A DNA stretch of 43,325 nt from Verrucomicrobiia bacterium. GTDB taxonomy: Bacteria; Verrucomicrobiota; Verrucomicrobiia; Limisphaerales; DASXHY01. Shown in pieces: positions 13,731 through 43,325 of the stretch; the stretch's first letter is position 1; each line of letters begins with the position of its first letter. The position numbers and the translations under genes were made by a program. The DNA lies in the NCBI GenBank assembly GCA_035629175.1, contig DASPIL010000042.1, forward strand, positions 1 through 43,325, written 5' to 3'. Below the pieces are notes generated by a model, which saw only the letters and a program-made list of their open reading frames with translations, did not search any database and had not been told where the DNA came from.

Positions 13731-13754
13731 TCCGCATTCGTTGATAGCAACGAA

Positions 13755-13867
13755 CTCATAAAGAGTGGTCGAGGGACTGGCCCGAAGACGCCACGGCAAC
13801 CGGTTGCAGCGCGATTTGCAATGTCCAGGTGCCAATTCCAGCTCCGAAAAAACCGGAGGAAAATGAG
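13755..13867 (+). promoter_or_regulatory. SAM-I (S-box) riboswitch
   Basis: The class signature blocks occur in order: the AAGAG kink-turn side of P2, GAGGGACTGGCCCGAAGA, GGCAACCGGTTGC and CAGGTGCCAATTCCAGCTCC. P1 closes by pairing CTCAT (13755-13759) with ATGAG (13863-13867). SAM binding stabilises P1. The 3' strand of P1 is also part of an alternative helix: TGAGAAG (13864-13870) can pair with CTTCTCA (13892-13898), the 5' arm of the downstream terminator. High SAM should therefore favour termination and low SAM read-through, so the downstream genes are expected to be induced by methionine/SAM shortage. Confidence 0.95.
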
Positions 13868-13886
13868 AAGAGCGCGCGCACTTTGA

Positions 13887-32021: not shown

Positions 32022-32111
32022 GGAGAGATGGCAGAGTGGTTTAACGCGCACGCCTGGAAAGCGTGAATACCTTCACGGGTATCGGGGGTTCGAATCCCCC
32101 TCTCTCCGCCA
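32022..32111 (+). tRNA. tRNA-Ser (anticodon GGA)
   Basis: The acceptor stem GGAGAGA pairs with TCTCTCC (32101-32107). The D loop contains GGTTTAACG, the anticodon stem is CACGC/GCGTG around CTGGAAA (anticodon GGA), a long class II variable arm follows (ATACCTTCACGGGTATC), and the T arm is GGGGGTTCGAATCCCCC. The CCA end is encoded (32109-32111). It is a serine acceptor for UCC/UCU codons. Accessory DNA (RAYT, type I restriction locus) begins just downstream; tRNA-Ser genes are common island integration sites, but no integrase and no duplicated tRNA end were found. Confidence 0.97.
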
Positions 32112-34615: not shown

Positions 34616-36364
34616 ATGCACTGGGTCGCTCCATCTGAGAAAAGCATCCACACGGAGACCTTGGAAAAACGCCTCTGGGATTCCGCCGACCAGTTTCGCG
34701 CCAATTCCGGCCTCAAGGCCCAGGAATACTCCGGCCCGATCCTCGGCATCATCTTCCTACGATTCGCGGAAGTCCGCTTTGCACTGCAACGCGCCAAGCT
34801 GGAGAAAGCCTCTGCCTCGTCCAGGCGCGGCTCGCGCGTGGATGAACCCGCCGCCTATCACGCCGAGGGCATCCTCTACCTCGCGCCCAACGCCCGGTTC
34901 GATTTCCTCCTGAATCTGCCCGAAGCAAAGGACATTGGCGCGAAGGTGAACGACGCCATGCGGGACATCGAGAAGCACAACCCGCAGCTCGCCGGCGTCC
35001 TGCCCAAGACCTACAACCTCTTCACCAGCACCCTCCTCAAGGAGCTGCTCAAGAAAGTCTCCGAGATTCCCGCCACCGTGGACTACGACGCCTTCGGGCG
35101 CATCTACGAATACTTCCTCGGCGAGTTCGCCCGCACCGAAGGCCAGAAAGGCGGCGAGTTCTACACTCCCTCCTGCATCGTCCGCCTCCTCACCGAAATC
35201 ATCGAGCCCTACCGCGGGCGCATCCTCGATCCCGCGTGCGGCTCGGGCGGCATGTTCGTCTCCTCCGCGCGATTCGTGGCGGAACATAAAAAGAATCCCA
35301 GCGCGGAACTCTCCATCCACGGCGTCGAGAAGACCGACGAAACCGGACGCCTCTGCCGCCTGAACCTCGCCGTGCATGGCCTCGAAGGCGACATCCGCCA
35401 CGGCGGCCAGGTGAACAGCTATTACGACGATCCGCACAAGGCAACGGGCCAGTTTGATTTCGTCCTCGCCAATCCACCGTTCAATGTGAACGCAGTGGAC
35501 AAGGAACGGTTGAAAGACTCCGTCGGGCCCGGCCGCCGCTTCCCGTTCGGCCTGCCGCGCACCGACAACGCTAATTACCTCTGGATTCAACTCTTCCACT
35601 CCGCGCTAAAGAATGGGGATGCCCGAACTTCGGGCGGCAGGGCCGGATTCGTCATGGCCAACTCCGCCTCCGACGCCCGCGCCTCCGAACAGGAAATCCG
35701 GCAGAAACTCATCGAAAGCCGCGCGCTGGACGTGATGGTCGCCGTCGGCCCGAATATGTTTTATACGGTGACGCTCCCTTGCACGTTATGGTTTTTGGAT
35801 AAGTCGAAAGCGACACCCTCTCCCACTGGGAGAGGGAGGAGCGGAGCGGAGGGTGAGGGAAAACAGAACCGAGCGGATACAGTTCTGTTTATAGATGCCC
35901 GCCACATTTACCGGCAGGTGGACCGCGCACACCGCGACTGGACGTCCGCGCAGATTGGGTTCCTCGCCAATATTGTGCGGCTTTACCGGGGCGAGCCGCC
36001 GGATTACACGCTGGGTGGAGCTGAGGCCAAGGCCAAGGTCGAGGAGCTGTTTGCCGCACAACCCTCAACCCGGCCTGGCGGCCACCCTTCTCCCAGTGGG
36101 AGAAGGGCCGGGGATGAGGGTATCGCCCGGTATCGCGACATCCCGGGTTTATGCAAAGCCGCGACCCTGAAAGAAATTGAGACTGAGGGATGGAGTCTGA
36201 ATCCAGGGCGATATGTGGGCGTCGCGCCGGGCGAAGCCGTGAGCGACGGGGACTTCAAGGAACAACTCGAAACCCTGAACGAGGAACTAGAAACGTTGAA
36301 CGCCCAAGCCCGCGAGTTGGAAACCACAATTGCGAAGAACGTCGCGGAAATCCTGGAAGCATGA
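34616..36364 (+). CDS. hsdM: Type I restriction-modification DNA methyltransferase (M subunit)
   Basis: A 582-residue N6-adenine methyltransferase. The N-terminal helical domain (about 14-160, [20 protein letters not shown]) is that of HsdM. The catalytic domain has [15 protein letters not shown] motif [11 protein letters not shown] (from residue 205) and catalytic motif IV ANPPFN (from residue 285). The C-terminus is a coiled tail ([18 protein letters not shown]) that contacts HsdS. Two insertions disturb the otherwise conserved C-terminal part: residues about 399-417 and about 481-502, both encoded by GC-rich palindromic repeats and rich in Pro, Ser, Gly and Arg. Both keep the frame, so the protein may still fold. 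The stop overlaps the next start (ATGA). It methylates host DNA as M2S and joins HsdR for cleavage. Confidence 0.93.
35621..35635. repeat. Short palindrome inside hsdM
   Basis: GCCCGAACTTCGGGC (arms of seven, one central base) encodes part of the segment [11 protein letters not shown], a flexible loop between the catalytic motif and AGFVMANS. It may be a small inserted hairpin, as similar loops in HsdM proteins are usually shorter, or simply a chance palindrome. Confidence 0.35.
35816..35862. repeat. Palindromic repeat inserted in frame in hsdM, copy 1
   Basis: The stretch contains CCCTCTCCC and GGGAGAGGG around the loop ACT, then GGAGCGGAGCGGAGGGTGAGGG, whose end pairs back toward the start. 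It encodes [17 protein letters not shown], a low-complexity segment placed between LWFLDKSK and the conserved [10 protein letters not shown] of HsdM. It has the look of a mobile intergenic palindrome that has landed inside a gene without breaking it. Confidence 0.7.
36061..36121. repeat. Palindromic repeat inserted in frame in hsdM, copy 2
   Basis: CCCTTCTCCC and GGGAGAAGGG surround AGT, flanked by CCCTCAACCCGG on the left and CCGGGGATGAGGG on the right, which also pair. It encodes [20 protein letters not shown], inserted between EELFAAQ and [11 protein letters not shown]. It is the same family as copy 1 and the copy in hsdR. Confidence 0.7.
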
Positions 36365-36771
36365 GCGACGCATCCCAATCACAACTGATTCTCTACCAAA
36401 CGGCCGATGGTCAGACCCGCATCCAATGCCGGTTTGAGAATCAGAATGTGTGGCTGACGCAGGCGCTGATGGCGGAGTTGTTCCAGACTACCGTTCCGAA
36501 CATCAACCTCCACATCAAGAACATCCTCGACGAGGGCGAATTGACCGAGGGGGCAACTATTAAGGATTACTTAATAGTCCGGTTGAAAGGCGGGCGGCAA
36601 GTGCGACGCCCAAGGCCAAGCGGACATCATGAATCTGCTCGAAGCCGAAGTGAAGAAACTCCCGAAGCGGAAAAAGGGAGGGAAGAAATGAAACTCGAAA
36701 CCTTGAACGCCCAGGCCCGCGACCTCGAACAAACCATTGCCCGCAACGTGGCGGAGATTCTGGAGGGGTGA
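36361..36771 (+). pseudogene. RhuM-like protein, truncated and fused to a second HsdM tail
   Basis: The first about 75 codons (SQLILYQTADGQTRIQCRFE, NVWLTQALMAELFQTTVPNI, GATIKDYLIVR) match the N-terminal helix-turn-helix-like part of RhuM/virulence-family proteins often found inside type I restriction operons. After GGRQV the match ends, where a full protein would go on for about 250 residues. The frame then runs through unrelated residues and ends in [26 protein letters not shown], a diverged copy of the HsdM C-terminus just upstream. In the other frame the same stretch reads ADIMNLLEAEVKKLPKRKKGGKK and stops at an ATGA junction (36688). So most of the RhuM gene was deleted and an HsdM-type 3' end was joined on. 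The start overlaps the hsdM stop by four bases. Confidence 0.7.
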
Positions 36772-36773
36772 CG

Positions 36774-38036
36774 ATGGACTGCGTTCTCAAAGACCTCATC
36801 GCGGTTTCAAAGGACGGAGAGTGGGGCAAGGGCGAGCCGTTCGATGAATCCGTTGAGATGCTCGCGATTCGCGGGACGGACTTTGAAGACGTGCGCTTTG
36901 GAAACACGGCGACAACGCCGCGCCGACATATTCCGCAGCACATTGCCGAACGGAAAAGGCTTCAGCCTTGGGATGTCGTCATCGAAGCTGCCGGCGGAAC
37001 GAAGAATCAGATTACTGGCCGAACTGTTCTCCTTCGCCCGCAGTTGTTTTCCCGCTCAGAATTCCCACTGACATGCGCGAGCTTCAGCCGGTTCATCCGG
37101 TTCAACACCGAGCTTTGCGAGCCGGAGTTCATGTTCTGGTATCTCCAGCACCTTTACGCATCCGGCTCGATGCACGCCTATCACACACAGCACACCGGCG
37201 TTGCTCGCTTCCAGTGGACAACATTTTCAGAGCGTGAGCCGCTTTCCCTCCCCCCGCTGCCGGTGCAACGGCGGATTGCGGGCATCCTGTCGGCCTACGA
37301 CGAGCTGATGGAGAACAGTCAGCGGCGCATCCGGATTTTGGAGGTGATGGCCCGCGCCCTCTACCGCGAGTGGTTCGTCCACTTCCGCTTCCCTGGCCAC
37401 GAAAAGCACCCGCGCGTGGCCTCCCCCCTCGGCGACATCCCCCAAGGCTGGGAGTGGCGTGAGCTGAATGAACTTGGTTTTCTCGGGCGAGGCAAATCGC
37501 GGCACCGGCCGCGAAATGAGGCTTCACTCTACGGTGGACCTTACCCGTTCTTCCAAACCGGGGACATCAAGGAAGCTCGAATCTTCCTCCGAAGCCACAC
37601 CCAGACTTACGGCGAGGCAGGTCTTGCCCAAAGCAAGCTTTGGCAACCCGGCACGCTTTGCATAACCATAGCGGCCAACATCGGTGAGACTGCGATTCTG
37701 GCCAAGACGGGCTGCATTCCTGACAGCGTCGTCGGCTTCGTACCGGACCTTGAGAAGTCCGATGCGTTCTACGTGAAGATGTATCTGGAGTCGATTAAGC
37801 AGCAAATGCAGAACGTCTCGCGCGGCACGACTCAGGACAACCTGAGTGTAGAGAAGCTGCTCGGCTTTCGGGTGCTGACGCCGCCGCCGTCCATCATCCG
37901 CGCGTTTCGCGAGAAAGTCTTGCCGATGCTGGACTTTCTGAACGTGCTCCTGCAAAAGGAAGAAAACCTCCGCCGAACGCGCGACCTGCTGCTGCCGCGC
38001 CTGCTGTCGGGGCAGGTGGAACTCGAAACCAGTTGA
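36774..38036 (+). CDS. hsdS: Type I restriction-modification specificity subunit (S)
   Basis: A 420-residue specificity subunit with two target-recognition domains. TRD1 (about 1-155) ends in FSEREPLSLPPLPVQRRIAG, and the central conserved helix ILSAYDELMENSQRRIRILE follows. TRD2 (about 210-365) opens at GDIPQGWEWRELNEL, contains a GDI motif and ends at LLGFRVLTPPPSIIRAF, with the distal helix LQKEENLRRTRDLLLPRLLSG. The two helices space the half-sites and bind HsdM. ATG 36774 has GGAGGGG eight bases before it; GTG 36768 is the other option and overlaps the preceding stop. The recognition sequence cannot be predicted by eye. Ends three bases before the ATPase gene. Confidence 0.92.
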   Translation: MDCVLKDLIAVSKDGEWGKGEPFDESVEMLAIRGTDFEDVRFGNTATTPRRHIPQHIAERKRLQPWDVVIEAAGGTKNQITGRTVLLRPQLFSRSEFPLTCASFSRFIRFNTELCEPEFMFWYLQHLYASGSMHAYHTQHTGVARFQWTTFSEREPLSLPPLPVQRRIAGILSAYDELMENSQRRIRILEVMARALYREWFVHFRFPGHEKHPRVASPLGDIPQGWEWRELNELGFLGRGKSRHRPRNEASLYGGPYPFFQTGDIKEARIFLRSHTQTYGEAGLAQSKLWQPGTLCITIAANIGETAILAKTGCIPDSVVGFVPDLEKSDAFYVKMYLESIKQQMQNVSRGTTQDNLSVEKLLGFRVLTPPPSIIRAFREKVLPMLDFLNVLLQKEENLRRTRDLLLPRLLSGQVELETS

Positions 38037-38039
38037 ACC

Positions 38040-40577
38040 ATGCCCAAGCACCCAGATGCAGTTGGCTATGTGAACGACCTCGCCAAGGAGGTAAACGAAC
38101 AATGGTTCAGAATGGTCTGCGACCTCGCGGCTGTGAGTGGTGTTTCAGCACTCGACCAACAGATGATCGACACGCTTTTCGCTCTCTATACGGTCAAGGC
38201 GAGCTACATCGGCATCAAGCCCGCCGCAGCCGTTGCTGCTGCCGCAGTCGCCGCAGTTCCAGCAGACTCCCTTGAGCAACTCGCAGGATTCACAAACTTC
38301 AAACTCCTCGGCGATGCGCTCGACGTTAGTTTAAAGAAGCGCGTCACTTTAATCTTTGGCGCGAACGGCAGCGGCAAATCCAGCCTGTGCGAATCCTTGA
38401 AAGTTCTCGCAACACCGGGGGTGCCAAGCCGACCGCTTGAAAACGTCCGTGTGGCTGGCGCGGTCACACCGACATTCCGCTTCAAGTTCAAGAGCGACGC
38501 CATCCCGCAGACTTGGACACCTGCCGCGGGGTATGGACCGCGACGAGCGACGGTTAAATACTTCGACACGGCGATTGCGCTCCAGAACGTGACCAACGCG
38601 GTCGAGCCCGGACGTGTGATAATTGTCGCACCGTTCAAGCTGCATATTTTCGAGTGGGCCAAAGCGTTGACGACCAAGTTCCGCGAGGCACTGCAACGGT
38701 CACAACTCGACAACGCAGCGAAGCTCACTCAGGCGTTGCAAGCGATTCGGACCGACTTCGTAAAGTTCAAGGCTCGCCCCTTGGCGCTCATTGATGACAA
38801 GACCGTTTCCACGCTCGCGGCACAAATCAAACTTGGCGAGGAGTTCAACGACCAAGAATTATTGCGCGAGAAACGAGCTGCCGCCGCCGAGTTGGAGAAG
38901 GCAACATCCGAAGAAGGATTGAAGCTTCTTCGCGCGGAGCACCGTGAGCTGGAAACCTTGCTGACGGCGTTGGACTCCCTGCTGACCTCCGCGGCGGCAC
39001 TTTGGGGACTAGACCCGGCGAACAAGGCGAAGACCCTCGCGAACAAGCAGGCCGCTCAGGAGGTGCTTGCGAAGGCACTCATCCCGGAAGGCAGCACGCT
39101 CGATAGCCTGCTGACTTTGCTTCGCGCTGCGTCTCCAATGTGCAAGATGGACGAGGCAACGGACCATGCGTGTCCGCTTTGCAAACGCGGTCTGGGTGCT
39201 TCCGAAGTTGAGTTGTTCAAGCAGTATCATGGATTGCTCGTTGGCGAACTTGAGAAAGACATCTCTGCCATCAAGGTCGACCTCATCAAGGCTCGCGACC
39301 TCTCAGCCGCAGTCGGACAGATTGACCGGAAAGCGTGGGACAAATGCAAAACCATAGCCGATGAGATTCTCACGGCGGCCAAGACCGGAGCGGAGTTGAT
39401 CGTGGCGAGTTGCGACATCTCAAAAGAACCGACCGCAGACGCCAAAGCTGCGTTGGAGTCGCTCAAGACTTCGGCGGTTACGTGGGCGGCGCAGATGGAA
39501 TCGAAGAAGACCGCCATTGACGCCGCTGCAAAGGGACGGGAGGAACTGGTGAAGCAGTTGGCAAAACTGCGCATTGAGCTTGAACCGTTGGAGTATGCCC
39601 AGGCCATTGCTGATGCGATGGAGAAGTTGCGCGAAACCCAGCGCATGGTGAACAGCGCGCAGTTCTGGAAAGAAAAGCTCCCGGCATTTACGCAAGTGCT
39701 GAAACGGATAACCGAGACAGCGAAGGACGCTCACGAGGATTTGGTGGTCACGGACTTTGAGGCGCGGTTGGACGCGGAATACCGGGCACTCGCGGAAAAG
39801 GGCATGGCAGCATTCGGCGTGAAGCTCGCGAGGAAAGGCGCGGACGCTTCCGTGACGGTGTTGCCACAGGTCGGCGGCAAGGGAATTGACGGCGTGTTGA
39901 GCGAGGGTGAGCAGCGGCTTCATGCGCTGGCGTTGTTCTTTGCCGAACTTGAAACCTGTCCGCAATCGGTCTTGGTGTTCGATGACCCGATCTCCAGCTT
40001 TGACTACAACTACATCGCGAACTACTGCGCCAGGCTCAGGGATTTCACGGTGAAGCATCCAGCGAGGCAGATTGTCGTTCTCACGCACAACTGGGAGTTC
40101 TTTGTCCAACTCCAAGCGACGATGAACCAAGCCGGCCTCGACGGTCACCTTTCAGTGCATGTTCTGGAGAACTGCACAGTCGTCGCCGACTACAGCGAGA
40201 AGATTGATGAACTGAAGAACGACATCAGCACGGTCTTGGCAACGGCGGGAGAGCCAAGCAAGCCCAAGAAAGAGGAGCTTGCCGGGAAGATGCGGCGGCT
40301 GATTGAGGCCGTTGTGAACACACACGTCTTCAACCACCAGCGGCATCAATACAAACAGAAGAGCCAAGCAATCACTGCCTTCCAGAGTTTCACAAAAGTC
40401 GTGCCATTACTCCCAGCCGAGGCCACCACCCTGCGTGACCTCTACGCGAAATTGAGCATCACGGAGCACGATGACCCACGGAACGCTTACGTGAACACCG
40501 ACAAGGCGATGTTCCAGACTCGCTACAACCAGATTCTCGGCATCGAAGCCGCAATCATTGGCCGCATTCCACCGTAA
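38040..40577 (+). CDS. AAA_13-type ATPase, PrrC/RloC-like, with Cys hook
   Basis: An 845-residue SMC/ABC-type ATPase. Walker A is GANGSGKSS (from residue 107), the ABC signature LSEGEQRLHALALFFAEL (from 620), Walker B SVLVFDDPISSFD (about 643-655) and the His switch VVLTHNWEFF (His683). Between them lies about 350 residues of Ala/Glu/Lys-rich coiled coil with a CPLC pair (Cys378, Cys381), placed like the zinc hook of RloC and Rad50. This architecture and the type I restriction context match the anticodon nucleases PrrC and RloC. The C-terminal domain has R752/R753 and E756 in KMRRLIEAVVNTHVF with several His nearby, compatible with but not proving the Arg-x3-Glu...His nuclease triad. A long Ala-rich stretch (59-73) is odd. 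The next gene encodes a double-HEPN protein. Confidence 0.82.
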   Translation: MPKHPDAVGYVNDLAKEVNEQWFRMVCDLAAVSGVSALDQQMIDTLFALYTVKASYIGIKPAAAVAAAAVAAVPADSLEQLAGFTNFKLLGDALDVSLKKRVTLIFGANGSGKSSLCESLKVLATPGVPSRPLENVRVAGAVTPTFRFKFKSDAIPQTWTPAAGYGPRRATVKYFDTAIALQNVTNAVEPGRVIIVAPFKLHIFEWAKALTTKFREALQRSQLDNAAKLTQALQAIRTDFVKFKARPLALIDDKTVSTLAAQIKLGEEFNDQELLREKRAAAAELEKATSEEGLKLLRAEHRELETLLTALDSLLTSAAALWGLDPANKAKTLANKQAAQEVLAKALIPEGSTLDSLLTLLRAASPMCKMDEATDHACPLCKRGLGASEVELFKQYHGLLVGELEKDISAIKVDLIKARDLSAAVGQIDRKAWDKCKTIADEILTAAKTGAELIVASCDISKEPTADAKAALESLKTSAVTWAAQMESKKTAIDAAAKGREELVKQLAKLRIELEPLEYAQAIADAMEKLRETQRMVNSAQFWKEKLPAFTQVLKRITETAKDAHEDLVVTDFEARLDAEYRALAEKGMAAFGVKLARKGADASVTVLPQVGGKGIDGVLSEGEQRLHALALFFAELETCPQSVLVFDDPISSFDYNYIANYCARLRDFTVKHPARQIVVLTHNWEFFVQLQATMNQAGLDGHLSVHVLENCTVVADYSEKIDELKNDISTVLATAGEPSKPKKEELAGKMRRLIEAVVNTHVFNHQRHQYKQKSQAITAFQSFTKVVPLLPAEATTLRDLYAKLSITEHDDPRNAYVNTDKAMFQTRYNQILGIEAAIIGRIPP

Positions 40578-40597: not shown

Positions 40598-41410
40598 ATG
40601 AGCAATAACCAGAAACTAAAACCTTGGGCGGCCGGTCCATTCGAGTTGATTCGGCATGGTGATGGACACCTCAAAGGTGGGACGGATTTCGACAAACGGA
40701 TGGCTCTTGTCAGCTTCGACAACGCAGTCGAGGTGTCCATCACGACGCACCTTCAGCTTCACCCGTCACAGAGGGGCGGCAAGACTTACGAGGGGAAGAA
40801 AGTTCAACATTGGCTTTCCAATTTTCACGCGAAGCTGGAGTTCCTCGAAGAGTTCTTGGTAGAGCGGAAGATTCCGATCGAAGTCTCGATTGATGAGATT
40901 GTGTGGTATCACCAGCTACGCAACGAGCTTTATCATTCTGGAAATGGGATGACACCGGAGGTGCATTGCCTCGTCGAGGCACAACATGCCGCTGTTTGGG
41001 TTTTCTCCGTCCTCTTCGGCGTTGACCCGAAGGGATTGCTTCAGGAAGCAAAGCCAGTCGAGACTCCGCGCAGAATCATTGATGCCAGTCAACTGACAGG
41101 GAAATCGCTGTTCCTTGAGATATTCATTGACCTTGAAAGAGCGATTCTCGGGACTTTGCGCGGCGCGGGTGTCTTGCCGGACCAGGCACACCACGTTCCT
41201 GCTCGGAAAGGATGGATGGACCTAAAAAAATTGTATCCAGACCTTCCACACCAGTTTGATGAACTCGTAGCCAAGGCGACGCAGGTCAGGAATGCATTGG
41301 TGCATGGCGCGCCGGTTGAATTGACCGAGCATGAGCTTCTTGGACTCGCAGACAAGGTGGAACAAGTCACTACGACAGTTCGCGAAAAGATGGCCCGGCA
41401 AAAACGCTGA
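40598..41410 (+). CDS. Double-HEPN-motif protein, candidate RNase effector
   Basis: A 270-residue soluble protein that I do not recognise as a named family. Two segments have the HEPN ribonuclease motif Arg-Asn-x3-His: QLRNELYHSG (R108, H113) and QVRNALVHGAP (R231, H236). Each lies in a helical region of about 100-120 residues, so the protein looks like two HEPN domains in tandem (about 30-140 and 165-265). HEPN RNases are effectors in toxin-antitoxin, abortive-infection, type III CRISPR and anticodon-nuclease systems. It starts 20 bases after the RloC-like ATPase gene and is followed by hsdR, so it is within the restriction operon. It could be a toxin, a partner of the ATPase, or a non-catalytic binder. 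No antitoxin gene is adjacent. Confidence 0.7.
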   Translation: MSNNQKLKPWAAGPFELIRHGDGHLKGGTDFDKRMALVSFDNAVEVSITTHLQLHPSQRGGKTYEGKKVQHWLSNFHAKLEFLEEFLVERKIPIEVSIDEIVWYHQLRNELYHSGNGMTPEVHCLVEAQHAAVWVFSVLFGVDPKGLLQEAKPVETPRRIIDASQLTGKSLFLEIFIDLERAILGTLRGAGVLPDQAHHVPARKGWMDLKKLYPDLPHQFDELVAKATQVRNALVHGAPVELTEHELLGLADKVEQVTTTVREKMARQKR

Positions 41411-41419
41411 CTCCCAAAA

Positions 41420-41496
41420 TTTCTCCCATGCCCCACGCCTACACCGAAGACCAGCTTGTCGAGCAGCCGCCGGAAGGGGAAAGGCTTAAGGCTTAA
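41420..41496 (+). pseudogene. hsdR: Truncated duplicate of the hsdR 5' end
   Basis: ATG 41428 begins MPHAYTEDQLVEQP, the same first residues as the hsdR gene at 42222, then reads PEGERLKA and stops at 41494-41496. Bases 41420-41468 are identical to 42214-42262 (49 bases). This is the left copy of the duplication that brackets the four-helix-bundle element; it shows that hsdR originally began here, 17 bases after the HEPN gene. Confidence 0.85.
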
Positions 41497-41515
41497 TGCT
41501 GAAGGCTGAAATTGC

Positions 41516-41734
41516 ACGAGGGAAAAACCTCAGGATCTGAAACCGAGAACCAGGGCGTTCGCGCTGCGCATCATCCACATGTATTCCGAGCTGCCGAAGA
41601 ACGACACGGTCGCACAGGTGCTGGGCAAGCAAGTTCTGCGTTCCGGAACATCGGTGGGCGCGAACTATTGCGAGGCGTCTCGTGGGCGGAAGGGAAAGGC
41701 TGAAGGCTTAATGCTGAAGGCCGAAATTGCATGA
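41516..41734 (+). pseudogene. Degenerate copy of the four-helix-bundle gene
   Basis: The frame reads TREKPQDLKPRTRAFALRI, then MYSELPKNDTVAQVLGKQ, matching the intact gene at 41828 but with the start codon changed from ATG to ACG (41516-41518). Bases 41600-41689 match 41912-42001 over 90 bases with one difference. The match ends at EASRGR, where the sequence passes into an inverted-repeat end and stops at 41732-41734. So it is a truncated copy lacking the last about 60 residues. Confidence 0.8.
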
Positions 41735-41827
41735 GGGAATAGCCACACCTTCAGCGTTAAGCCTTTAGCCTTTAGCATTTCTCCAAAAGGGGAAGGCTGA
41801 AGGCGAAATGCGGAAGGCTGAAGTGTT

Positions 41828-42196
41828 ATGAGCGAAAAGCCGCAGGACTTGAAACCTAGGACGAAGGCGTTTGCCCTTAGGATCATTCGCATGTATTCCG
41901 ACCTGGCCAAGAACGACACGGTCGCACAGGTGCTGGGCAAGCAAGTTCTGCGTTCCGGAACATCGGTGGGCGCGAACTATTGCGAGGCGTCTCGCGGGCG
42001 GTCCAAAGCCGAGTTCATTTCCAAGATTGGCGATTGCCTCAAGGAAATCGAAGAAACCGAGTATTGGCTCGAATTGATCGTGGACAGCGGTCGTGTGTCT
42101 GCCGCGAAGATGGCCGATCTGATCGACGAAACCCGCCAACTGGTGGCAATTGTGACGACCATTGATAAACGTTCGAAAGCAAACCTTCAGCATTAA
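41828..42196 (+). CDS. Four-helix-bundle protein (23S rRNA intervening-sequence protein family)
   Basis: A 122-residue all-helical protein. It has the family core: FALRIIRMYSDLAKN, QVLGKQVLRSGTSVGANYCEA, KAEFISKIGDCLKEIEETEYWL and ADLIDETRQLVAIVTTI. These proteins were first seen inside intervening sequences of 23S rRNA genes and are common as stand-alone genes flanked by repeats; their function is unknown, with RNA binding or dimerisation proposed. Here the last codons and the stop lie within the right inverted repeat (42184-42201), so the gene and the element end are one unit. It lies between the HEPN gene and hsdR and is probably a passenger rather than a part of the restriction system. 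Confidence 0.88.
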   Translation: MSEKPQDLKPRTKAFALRIIRMYSDLAKNDTVAQVLGKQVLRSGTSVGANYCEASRGRSKAEFISKIGDCLKEIEETEYWLELIVDSGRVSAAKMADLIDETRQLVAIVTTIDKRSKANLQH

Positions 42197-42221
42197 GCCT
42201 TTAGCCTTTAGCCTTTCTCCC

Positions 42222-43191
42222 ATGCCCCACGCCTACACCGAAGACCAGCTTGTCGAGCAGCCCGCCATCGGGTTGTTCGCGGAGCTTGGTTGGCAGGTGG
42301 CCGGGCCGCCGCTCACGGCAGGCGTTGCCGGTGAGCCTCGTGACGCGGGGTTGCTCGGTCGCGAGACTAAGGGCGAGGTGGTGCTGGTTCCGCGGTTGCG
42401 CGCGGCGTTGGAGAAGTTGAATCCCGCGCTGCCGCCCGAGGCCATCACCGCCGCCGTGGATGAATTGACCCGCGACCGTTCCGCGATGTTGCTCGAACAG
42501 GCGAACCGCGAGGTTTATCGGTTGTTGAAAGAGGGAATCCCGGTGAGCGTCGCAGATACCGGAGATTCGACACCTCACCCCGGCCCTCTCCCCGGTCGAG
42601 GCGGAGAGGGTGGTGCAAGCCGCACGGGCAATCCTCAGCGCGGAGAAGGCAAGGGAGGACAGACGACTGTCCGCGTCCGCGTGATTGATTGGGAGCAGCC
42701 AGCGAACAATGATTTCCTGCTGGTCAGCCAGTTCAGCGTCACGGGAGCGCTCTACACCTGCCGCCCGGATTTGGTGGGCTTCGTCAACGGCCTGCCGCTG
42801 GTGGTCATCGAGTTGAAGAAGCCCGGCGTGCCCGCGCGCGCGGCGTTCGACGAGAACCTGACGCACTACAAGGCGGAGATTCCGCAGCTCTTCTGGTTCA
42901 ACGCGCTGCTCATCGCCTCGAACGGCACGGACAGCCGCGTCGGTTCGATCACGGCGGATTGGGAGCGGTTCTTCGAATGGAAACGCATCGAGCGCGAGGA
43001 CGAGCCGCGCCGGGTGTCGCTGGAAGTGATGATTCGCGGCACATGCGATCGGTCGCGTCTGCTCGACCTGGTGGAGAATTTCACCCTGTTCTCGGAGCAT
43101 AAGGCGGGATTGGCCAAGATTGTTGGTCAGAATCATCAAGTGCTCGGGGTCAATGCGGCAATTGCGTCGTTGTTGCGGCGGCGTGGCGGAG
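42222..43191 (+). CDS. hsdR: Type I restriction endonuclease subunit R, 5' part, interrupted
   Basis: The first about 323 codons of HsdR, the ATP-dependent translocase and nuclease. MPHAYTEDQLVEQPAIGLFAELGW starts at ATG 42222. The N-terminal nuclease domain has RPDLVGFVNGLPLVVIELKKPG (the Asp and Glu-x-Lys of the PD-(D/E)xK site), then FDENLTHYK, WFNALLIASNGTDSRVG, RGTCDRSRLLDLVENF and GQNHQVLGVNAAIASLLRRRGG. The helicase motifs that should come next are absent: at 43192 the sequence turns into the 3' end of a group II intron in antisense orientation. About 35 codons between SVADTG and GGQTTVRVRVIDWE come from a palindromic repeat. The gene is therefore probably inactive unless the rest is read some other way; the distal part would lie outside the window. 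Confidence 0.88.
42569..42655. repeat. Palindromic repeat inserted in frame in hsdR
   Basis: The stretch starts ACACCTCACCCCGGCCCTCTCC and contains GGCGGAGAGGGTGG. It encodes TPHPGPLPGRGGEGGASRTG and further Gly/Arg-rich residues before GGQTTVRV. It is the classic CCTCACCC...GGTGAGG type intergenic palindrome read in frame, and is related to the two copies in hsdM. Confidence 0.7.
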
Positions 43192-43325
43192 ATAGGGGTA
43201 GGAGCGAGGGATTAACCTCGCCCCTCCCTCCAAACCGGACGGGCGGATTTCCCGCATCCGGCTTTCCGTTTAGTGGTTCCTGTCCGGAGTTGGCTCGCTT
43301 CGGCTCGGGCTGTGGCCAGGGAGAT
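43192..43325 (-). mobile_element. 3' end of a group II intron (domains V and VI), antisense in hsdR
   Basis: On the minus strand, 43265-43232 is a 34-base hairpin matching intron domain V: AAGCCGGAT pairs with GTCCGGTTT (two G-U pairs), a two-base CC bulge follows, and GCGG pairs with CCGC under an AAA-containing loop; the AGC triad is present. It is followed by domain VI, in which GGGGCGAGG pairs with CCTCGCTCC around TTAAT. A bulged A (complement of 43199) lies eight bases from a 3' end in ...CTAT, as expected for the branch point and the AY terminus. The intron reads opposite to hsdR, so it cannot be spliced from the hsdR message. Its 5' part and reverse transcriptase lie beyond the window. 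Confidence 0.75.

Follow-up and report, generated by a model that had tools for sequence, protein, structure and literature searches.

Inverted arrays of short repeats frame IVP genes in small, very probably mobile elements at operon junctions

The 745-nt insert at the start of hsdR in the window (the whole analysed stretch of 43,325 nt from a Verrucomicrobiia bacterium) very probably belongs to a widespread class of small mobile units, which consist of an array of short repeats, an IVP gene and an inverted array, are usually about 400–500 nt long and insert from arm to arm. Among 159 IVP genes from about 20 phyla, 84–87% are flanked by inverted arrays of 7–9-nt repeats, compared with about 5% of controls. 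The units insert at gene junctions of operons, mostly in the sense of transcription; insertion creates short duplications and leaves both neighbours intact, and the element exists with and without the IVP gene. IVP genes are annotated as ‘four helix bundle protein’ or ‘S23 ribosomal protein’, occur in many phyla, with as many as about 15 copies in a genome, and, to our knowledge, have no known role. Being the core of a mobile unit would give these genes a biology and tie them to the intervening sequences of 23S rRNA.

The insert at the hsdR start

The insert lies in an hsd operon, exactly at the start of hsdR. The features of the locus are as follows.

34616–36364: hsdM, hsd operon
36768–38036: hsdS, hsd operon
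38040–40577: AAA ATPase gene, hsd operon
40598–41410, + strand: 270-aa gene upstream of the insert and co-directional, without Pfam match, member of the hsd operon
41420–41468, + strand: left copy of the 49-nt direct repeat, a displaced hsdR start that is not followed by hsdR
41469–42213, + strand: inserted segment of 745 nt, composite IVP element
41481–41507, + strand: outer 5′ arm, tandem array with unit AAGGCTT (7 nt, 3.9 copies; TRF), inverted partner at 42184–42216
41525–41689, + strand: truncated first IVP copy
41692–41784, + strand: mini-element without IVP gene, inverted heptamer arrays at 41696–41725 and 41748–41780, loop of 22 nt
41787–41823, + strand: 5′ arm of the intact element, unit AAGGCGG/AAGGCTG (TRF)
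41828–42196, + strand: intact IVP gene, 122 aa, four-helix bundle, PF05635/TIGR02436
42184–42216, + strand: 3′ arm, tandem array of CCTTTAG (7 nt, 4.7 copies; TRF), overlapping the 3′ end of the IVP gene
42214–42262, + strand: right copy of the 49-nt repeat, the working hsdR start (ATG at 42222)
from 42222 (ATG): hsdR, HSDR_N match

The insert is thus a composite of a truncated IVP copy with its 5′ arm, a mini-hairpin without IVP gene and an intact IVP unit. Segment 41474–41689 is 86% identical to segment 41786–42001. An earlier note on this DNA had described an insertion between perfect 49-nt copies of the hsdR start that leaves hsdR with an intact start. Both statements were confirmed, the copies lying at 41420–41468 and 42214–42262 and the right one carrying the ATG. 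The note had also described perfect inverted ends of 18 bp. A perfect 18-nt inverted match is indeed present (AAGGCTTAATGCTGAAGG, 41488–41505, and CCTTCAGCATTAAGCCTT, 42184–42201), together with inner copies. However, the ends of the insert are tandem arrays of a 7-nt unit (AAGGCTT/AAGGCTG), so the 18-mer is just their best-matching portion. TRF reports such arrays at 41481–41507, 41696–41725, 41748–41780, 41787–41823 and 42184–42216. With up to one mismatch, the core 16-mer of the repeat has no second site in the 5.4-Mb genome, and it is therefore not a shared transposon end. The literal 18-base repeat, which the earlier note had suggested searching for at other IVP genes, is private to the window locus at this level of mismatch, so that such a search would have pointed away from a correct idea.

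The window IVP scores 63.8 bits against PF05635 (cut-off 33.8) and 79.4 against TIGR02436 (cut-off 24). Its AlphaFold2 model is a four-helix bundle with a pLDDT of 94.6, and the closest structures are 2RLD (TM 0.82) and 2GSC (TM 0.73–0.77), for the latter of which a homopentamer is the state known from the literature. A distant likeness exists to Avd of diversity-generating retroelements (4DWL, TM 0.69, E about 1), and homology of IVP and Avd has been suggested (PMC10053308). IVP is the sole protein family found in the element. As the earlier note had supposed, no transposase is encoded there, and the plasmid elements of about 400–500 nt described below likewise carry no gene besides IVP; nor does the element contain an ORF for a Y1 (HUH) transposase. 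A search for IVP relatives found none among viral contigs and a single weak match among phages.

Elsewhere in the window, Rfam reports a SAM riboswitch (13753–13869, +) and a tRNA gene (32022–32108, +). A group II intron RNA domain (RF00029, 53.7 bits; 43192–43266, −) lies within hsdR near the contig end, and a group II intron apparently interrupts this gene.

Architecture and placement of the arrays

Flanking arrays were assessed in two sets of IVP genes. The first comprised 76 genes, taken from the own genome and from 30 further genomes of the order and scored by the complementarity of the 350 nt before and the 350 nt after the gene. The mean was 20.5, compared with 9.5 for flanks swapped between loci, and 87% of the genes exceeded the 95th percentile of this null. 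The second, independent set comprised 83 IVP copies from about 20 phyla, found with a family-consensus query and hence biased to canonical IVPs; here the inverted-flank score reached at least 12 in 84% and at least 17.5 in 58%. Random placements of the same size at the same loci reached these values in 4.6% and 0.15%. The difference at 17.5 shows that the inverted flanks are not due to chance. Convincing arms were not seen in about 15% of IVP copies.

Of 85 elements, 59 have a repeat unit of 7 nt, 18 one of 8 nt and 3 one of 9 nt, and both arms share the unit length in 82. Within the own genome, the unit sequence differs at each IVP locus: L001 carries arrays with an 8-nt AGGGACGA-like unit, L002 the 7-nt unit ATGGCAA and L005 the 8-nt unit AAAAGCTG, while no inverted arrays were found at L004 and L006. 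No terminal inverted repeat is conserved across copies. The conserved feature is the architecture, inverted arrays of 7–9-nt units, and the unit sequence is private to the lineage.

The IVP lineage is reflected in both the sequence and the unit length of the arms, and the two arms of one element change together. Array similarity increases with IVP identity, from a 5-mer cosine of 0.04 below 35% identity to 0.41 at 70–90%; the correlation (Mantel rho 0.18, z 7.1) also holds between taxa. The unit length equals that of the nearest IVP relative in 66 of 84 elements (45 expected), and matches fall to 54 (p = 0.05) if pairs with similar arrays are excluded. For IVP pairs at 55–70% identity, the arms of one element score 24.6 against each other and 11.6 across elements, the own-arm score being higher in 127 of 130 pairs. 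As the arms match within but not between elements, the sequence drifts while complementarity is kept. The purE start, ATGAACC, is identical to the unit there, which raised the possibility that arms are copied from the target; this was rejected, since other sites show no such agreement and related arms turn up in contexts that have nothing in common.

Elements were observed at operon gene junctions in at least 15 phyla. Both neighbours are co-directional with the IVP gene in 70% of cases (53% of control genes), and the upstream neighbour in 87% (68% of control genes). Junctions include sdhA|sdhB, purK|purE, argC|argD, ffh|folD, gltA|sucC (L023), paaA|paaB (L149), RND fusion protein|pump (L053), fadB|fadA in three genera and, on cyanobacterial plasmids, cas6|cas4 and cmr2|cmr3; in several Bacteroidota the element adjoins sufB. 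Names of neighbours without Pfam call or record annotation were read from the sequence. Often the following gene takes its start or N-terminal codons from the 3′ arm (purE, cas4). For annotation, this means that inserts can provide the start and the N-terminal codons of core genes. Flanks conserved across taxa raised the question of 23S rRNA, which Rfam ruled out, with no rRNA in the window or at L104, L031, L119 and L141; the flanks are operon genes, and the window element does not lie inside a 23S rRNA gene.

Occupied sites, empty sites and mini-elements

The earlier note had proposed that IVP genes are mobile units and that occupied and empty sites be compared at homologous loci. This comparison gave consistent boundaries, from arm to arm. 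At one site of a T4SS operon, the element is present in Trichormus variabilis plasmid C and in Scytonema NIES-4073. The same site is empty in Nostoc linckia and Aulosira, which are about 97% identical and read AAAAAGTAATTAACAAATAA(A/T)TATG. The occupied site reads ..AAAAAGTAAT|AAATCAGAATTCAG...CTTCTTT|GTAATTAAC.., so that the duplication is GTAAT; between the two elements, one arm varies by two units. Several Nostoc plasmids share a four-gene operon in which two adjacent junctions can hold an element. At the first, pNsp_c has an element and seven other plasmid copies do not; at the second, pNsp_a, pC052_D and pNPM1 carry an element and five copies lack it. The duplicated bases at these sites read TTCTA and ATG (or TAATG/TTATG), each length being resolvable only to 3–5 nt. 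At the first junction, the insertion splits a stop/start overlap, TAATG, and the signals of both genes are retained. Over 419 nt, the elements of Trichormus and pNsp_a share 78% identity, with the match stopping at the arms, although their operons are unrelated. The Trichormus and Nostoc empty sites could in principle be precise excisions. The Anabaena cas6|cas4 and Picosynechococcus cmr pairs were too unclean for a duplication to be read.

Other sites are polymorphic as well. At purK|purE of Mucilaginibacter, the element is present in 3 of 30 species; others have lone arrays, and an empty junction measures 61 nt. At the iscA|sufB junction of Christiangramia, 12 of 23 species carry an element; these elements fall into three IVP clades (32–53% identical between clades), with pseudogenes and a remnant among them, and ffh|folD is occupied in 7 of 24 species. 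Some copies at the same site are orthologous and track the species (L124/L138).

These junctions also hold other inserts. A different palindrome is found at purK-purE of Mucilaginibacter in L197–L199, L202–L207, L210 and L218 (GTCATTGCGAGG..., ...CCTCGCAATGAC), making the junction a hot spot for unrelated small palindromic elements. In L208 and L201, purK-purE carries a different, protein-coding insert of about 600 nt; that of L208 is preceded by the same type of heptamer arm, so arms of this kind may also serve a different cargo. At ffh-folD of Christiangramia, L332, L333 and L348 contain a further palindromic element (GCCCCCTAACCCCCAAGGGGG ... CTCCTCCCCTTGGGGGAGG); the one in L348 precedes an apparent remnant of an IVP 3′ arm.

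Elements without the gene were found in 400 kb of one Mucilaginibacter genome (G042, C4:1–400000; L223–L242). Here, arrays lie near every IVP gene, mostly on both sides, and nine further inverted array pairs enclose no IVP gene but loops of 20–102 nt. For four of these nine, the match to arms of IVP elements sampled from this genome is far closer than that to arms of other genomes; in one example, ATAGTTGATGGTTCATAGTTCAT equals the purK|purE arm. The inner hairpin of the window insert is the same kind of object. Together with the clean plasmid pairs of occupied and empty sites, the mini-elements that share resident arms support the idea of a mobile unit. The same 400 kb contain 85 short tandem arrays (unit 6–10 nt), most of them unpaired, and arrays must thus also have other sources or fates.

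The 49-bp duplication, which the earlier note took as part of the element's insertion, did not prove general. Direct repeats outside the arms exceed the 99th percentile of the null in about 5% of elements, so long target duplications were rejected as a general signature; clean empty sites show 3–5 bp, and the 49 nt of the window are therefore unusual and inconsistent with a staggered cut of 3–5 nt. The 3′ end of the mini-element (41778–41784) reads TTTCTCC, which is also the first 7 nt of the duplication, and the duplication may therefore be partly element-borne or reflect microhomology. In the same operon, the 3′ end of hsdM (36285–36364) recurs at 36692–36771 (80 nt, 75% identity). The roughly 330 nt in between resemble a RhuM-type fragment, with no Pfam match at E 0.001, and the arrangement has the appearance of an older insertion whose duplication restored the gene. 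This second long duplication hints that such duplications can arise there by another route. A search for a clean empty hsdR site within the phylum found none; L268 retains only a 74-nt fragment of the hsdR start.

Movement and related systems

The co-variation of arms and IVP suggests that an IVP oligomer would recognise, as DNA, the repeated unit in both arms. We propose that it would bring the ends together or onto a hairpin, and that a nuclease or a replication or repair enzyme encoded outside the element would finish the insertion. Strand switching in the hairpin during replication would probably keep the arms matched. The placement at junctions probably reflects survivorship, as such inserts alone would spare both genes and keep the IVP gene transcribed. 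At the hsdR start of the window, a duplication of 49 nt, unusually long for these elements, restores the start codon. On this basis it is possible, and we propose it tentatively, that IVP elements are autonomous, transposase-free mobile DNA whose ends are a self-renewing pair of arrays, with the recognised unit free to drift provided that both ends drift together, and that the many heptamer arrays without explanation in bacterial genomes, such as the cyanobacterial STRRs and the GGGAATC pairs of Xanthomonas, are their mini-elements and remains.

A different possibility, which we regard as rather unlikely, is that the element acts at the RNA level, its arms making a transcript stem that RNase III cuts out, with DNA mobility being incidental. 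In Coxiella, an IVP ORF lies within the 23S rRNA IVS, whose 28-bp terminal stem is cleaved by RNase III; the ORF is preceded by three tandem GACAGAT heptamers, which vary in length between strains (PMC4990558). The window element, too, has terminal inverted repeats that could pair into a stem enclosing its IVP ORF, and elements are sense-oriented in transcribed operons. However, selection on RNA pairing, sought through an excess of G·U mismatches, gave no signal: G·U-compatible mismatches in the arms number 120 and A·C mismatches 164. This argues, indirectly, against selection for pairing of the sense transcript and for a cause at the DNA level. Mini-elements and short duplications are also left unexplained. 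To about the same degree, we doubt that the unit is a passenger whose arms serve an unrelated resident transposase as ends, with IVP as cargo or accessory. Duplications of 3–5 bp are typical of DDE enzymes, and mini-elements with the same arms occur without IVP. On the other hand, a foreign transposase would be expected to impose one common end sequence, whereas the elements of one genome have no common arm sequence and the arms vary with IVP.

It is distinctly improbable that IVP acts like Avd with a reverse transcriptase in trans, so that element RNA is copied into new sites. The likeness of the fold to Avd, two RT genes in the own genome and the group II intron fragment within the same hsdR would fit such a process. 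RT (PF00078) is, however, missing from 5 of 13 IVP-rich genomes, including the isolates G040 and G046, which weakens a resident RT as the motor; since these are draft assemblies, the absence is strong but not absolute. Least probable is an immobile origin: the gene would be old and inherited vertically, arrays would have grown around it by replication slippage, and the hsdR case would be a duplication of local origin. Same-site copies that track species and the 80-nt hsdM-end duplication around a fragment in the same operon agree with it. It is contradicted by empty sites at about 97% identity unless every one of them is a deletion, by the independent occupation of two junctions of one operon and by three IVP clades at a single junction within one genus.

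Autonomous movement by IVP elements would pose the question of how long ends stay complementary under drift and how DNA moves without an enzyme of its own; the plasmid pairs allow tests. In open-access text, we found no link of IVP genes to inverted repeat arrays outside rRNA. The elements share the protein family and terminal inverted repeats around the ORF with the 23S rRNA IVS of Leptospira and Coxiella (PMC4990558). The IVS lie in rRNA helices and are described as rRNA elements, whereas the present elements lie at junctions of protein-coding operons and have private repeat units, short duplications and mini forms without IVP. Like MITEs and REP/RAYT, they comprise autonomous-looking and gene-less forms with common inverted ends, but they contain neither transposase nor Y1 protein and the end sequence is particular to each element. 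Target duplications (GTAAT in Trichormus; TTCTA, ATG or TAATG/TTATG in Nostoc; 49 nt in the window) are shared with insertion sequences, unlike which the elements have no own transposase and no conserved end sequence. The four-helix-bundle fold is shared with the DGR accessory protein Avd (4DWL), but reverse transcriptase, template and variable repeat are missing.

IVP elements would also offer an origin for long-unexplained heptamer arrays. Xanthomonas genomes contain about 70 pairs of convergent GGGAATC heptamer arrays each, mostly intergenic, described as G-quadruplex repeats with neither a mobile-element nor an IVP link being made (PMC4692102). These pairs resemble the arms in being convergent heptamer arrays, and Xanthomonas campestris, which carries them, is the source of the IVP structure 2GSC (XCC0516); we predict that they are mini-elements. 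The same paper mentions the STRR repeats (PMC4692102). Heptamer arrays are the ends of the IVP elements found here on Nostoc and Trichormus plasmids. The STRR heptanucleotide repeats of cyanobacteria (Calothrix, Nostoc), by comparison, are intergenic tandem heptamers reported as plain repeats.
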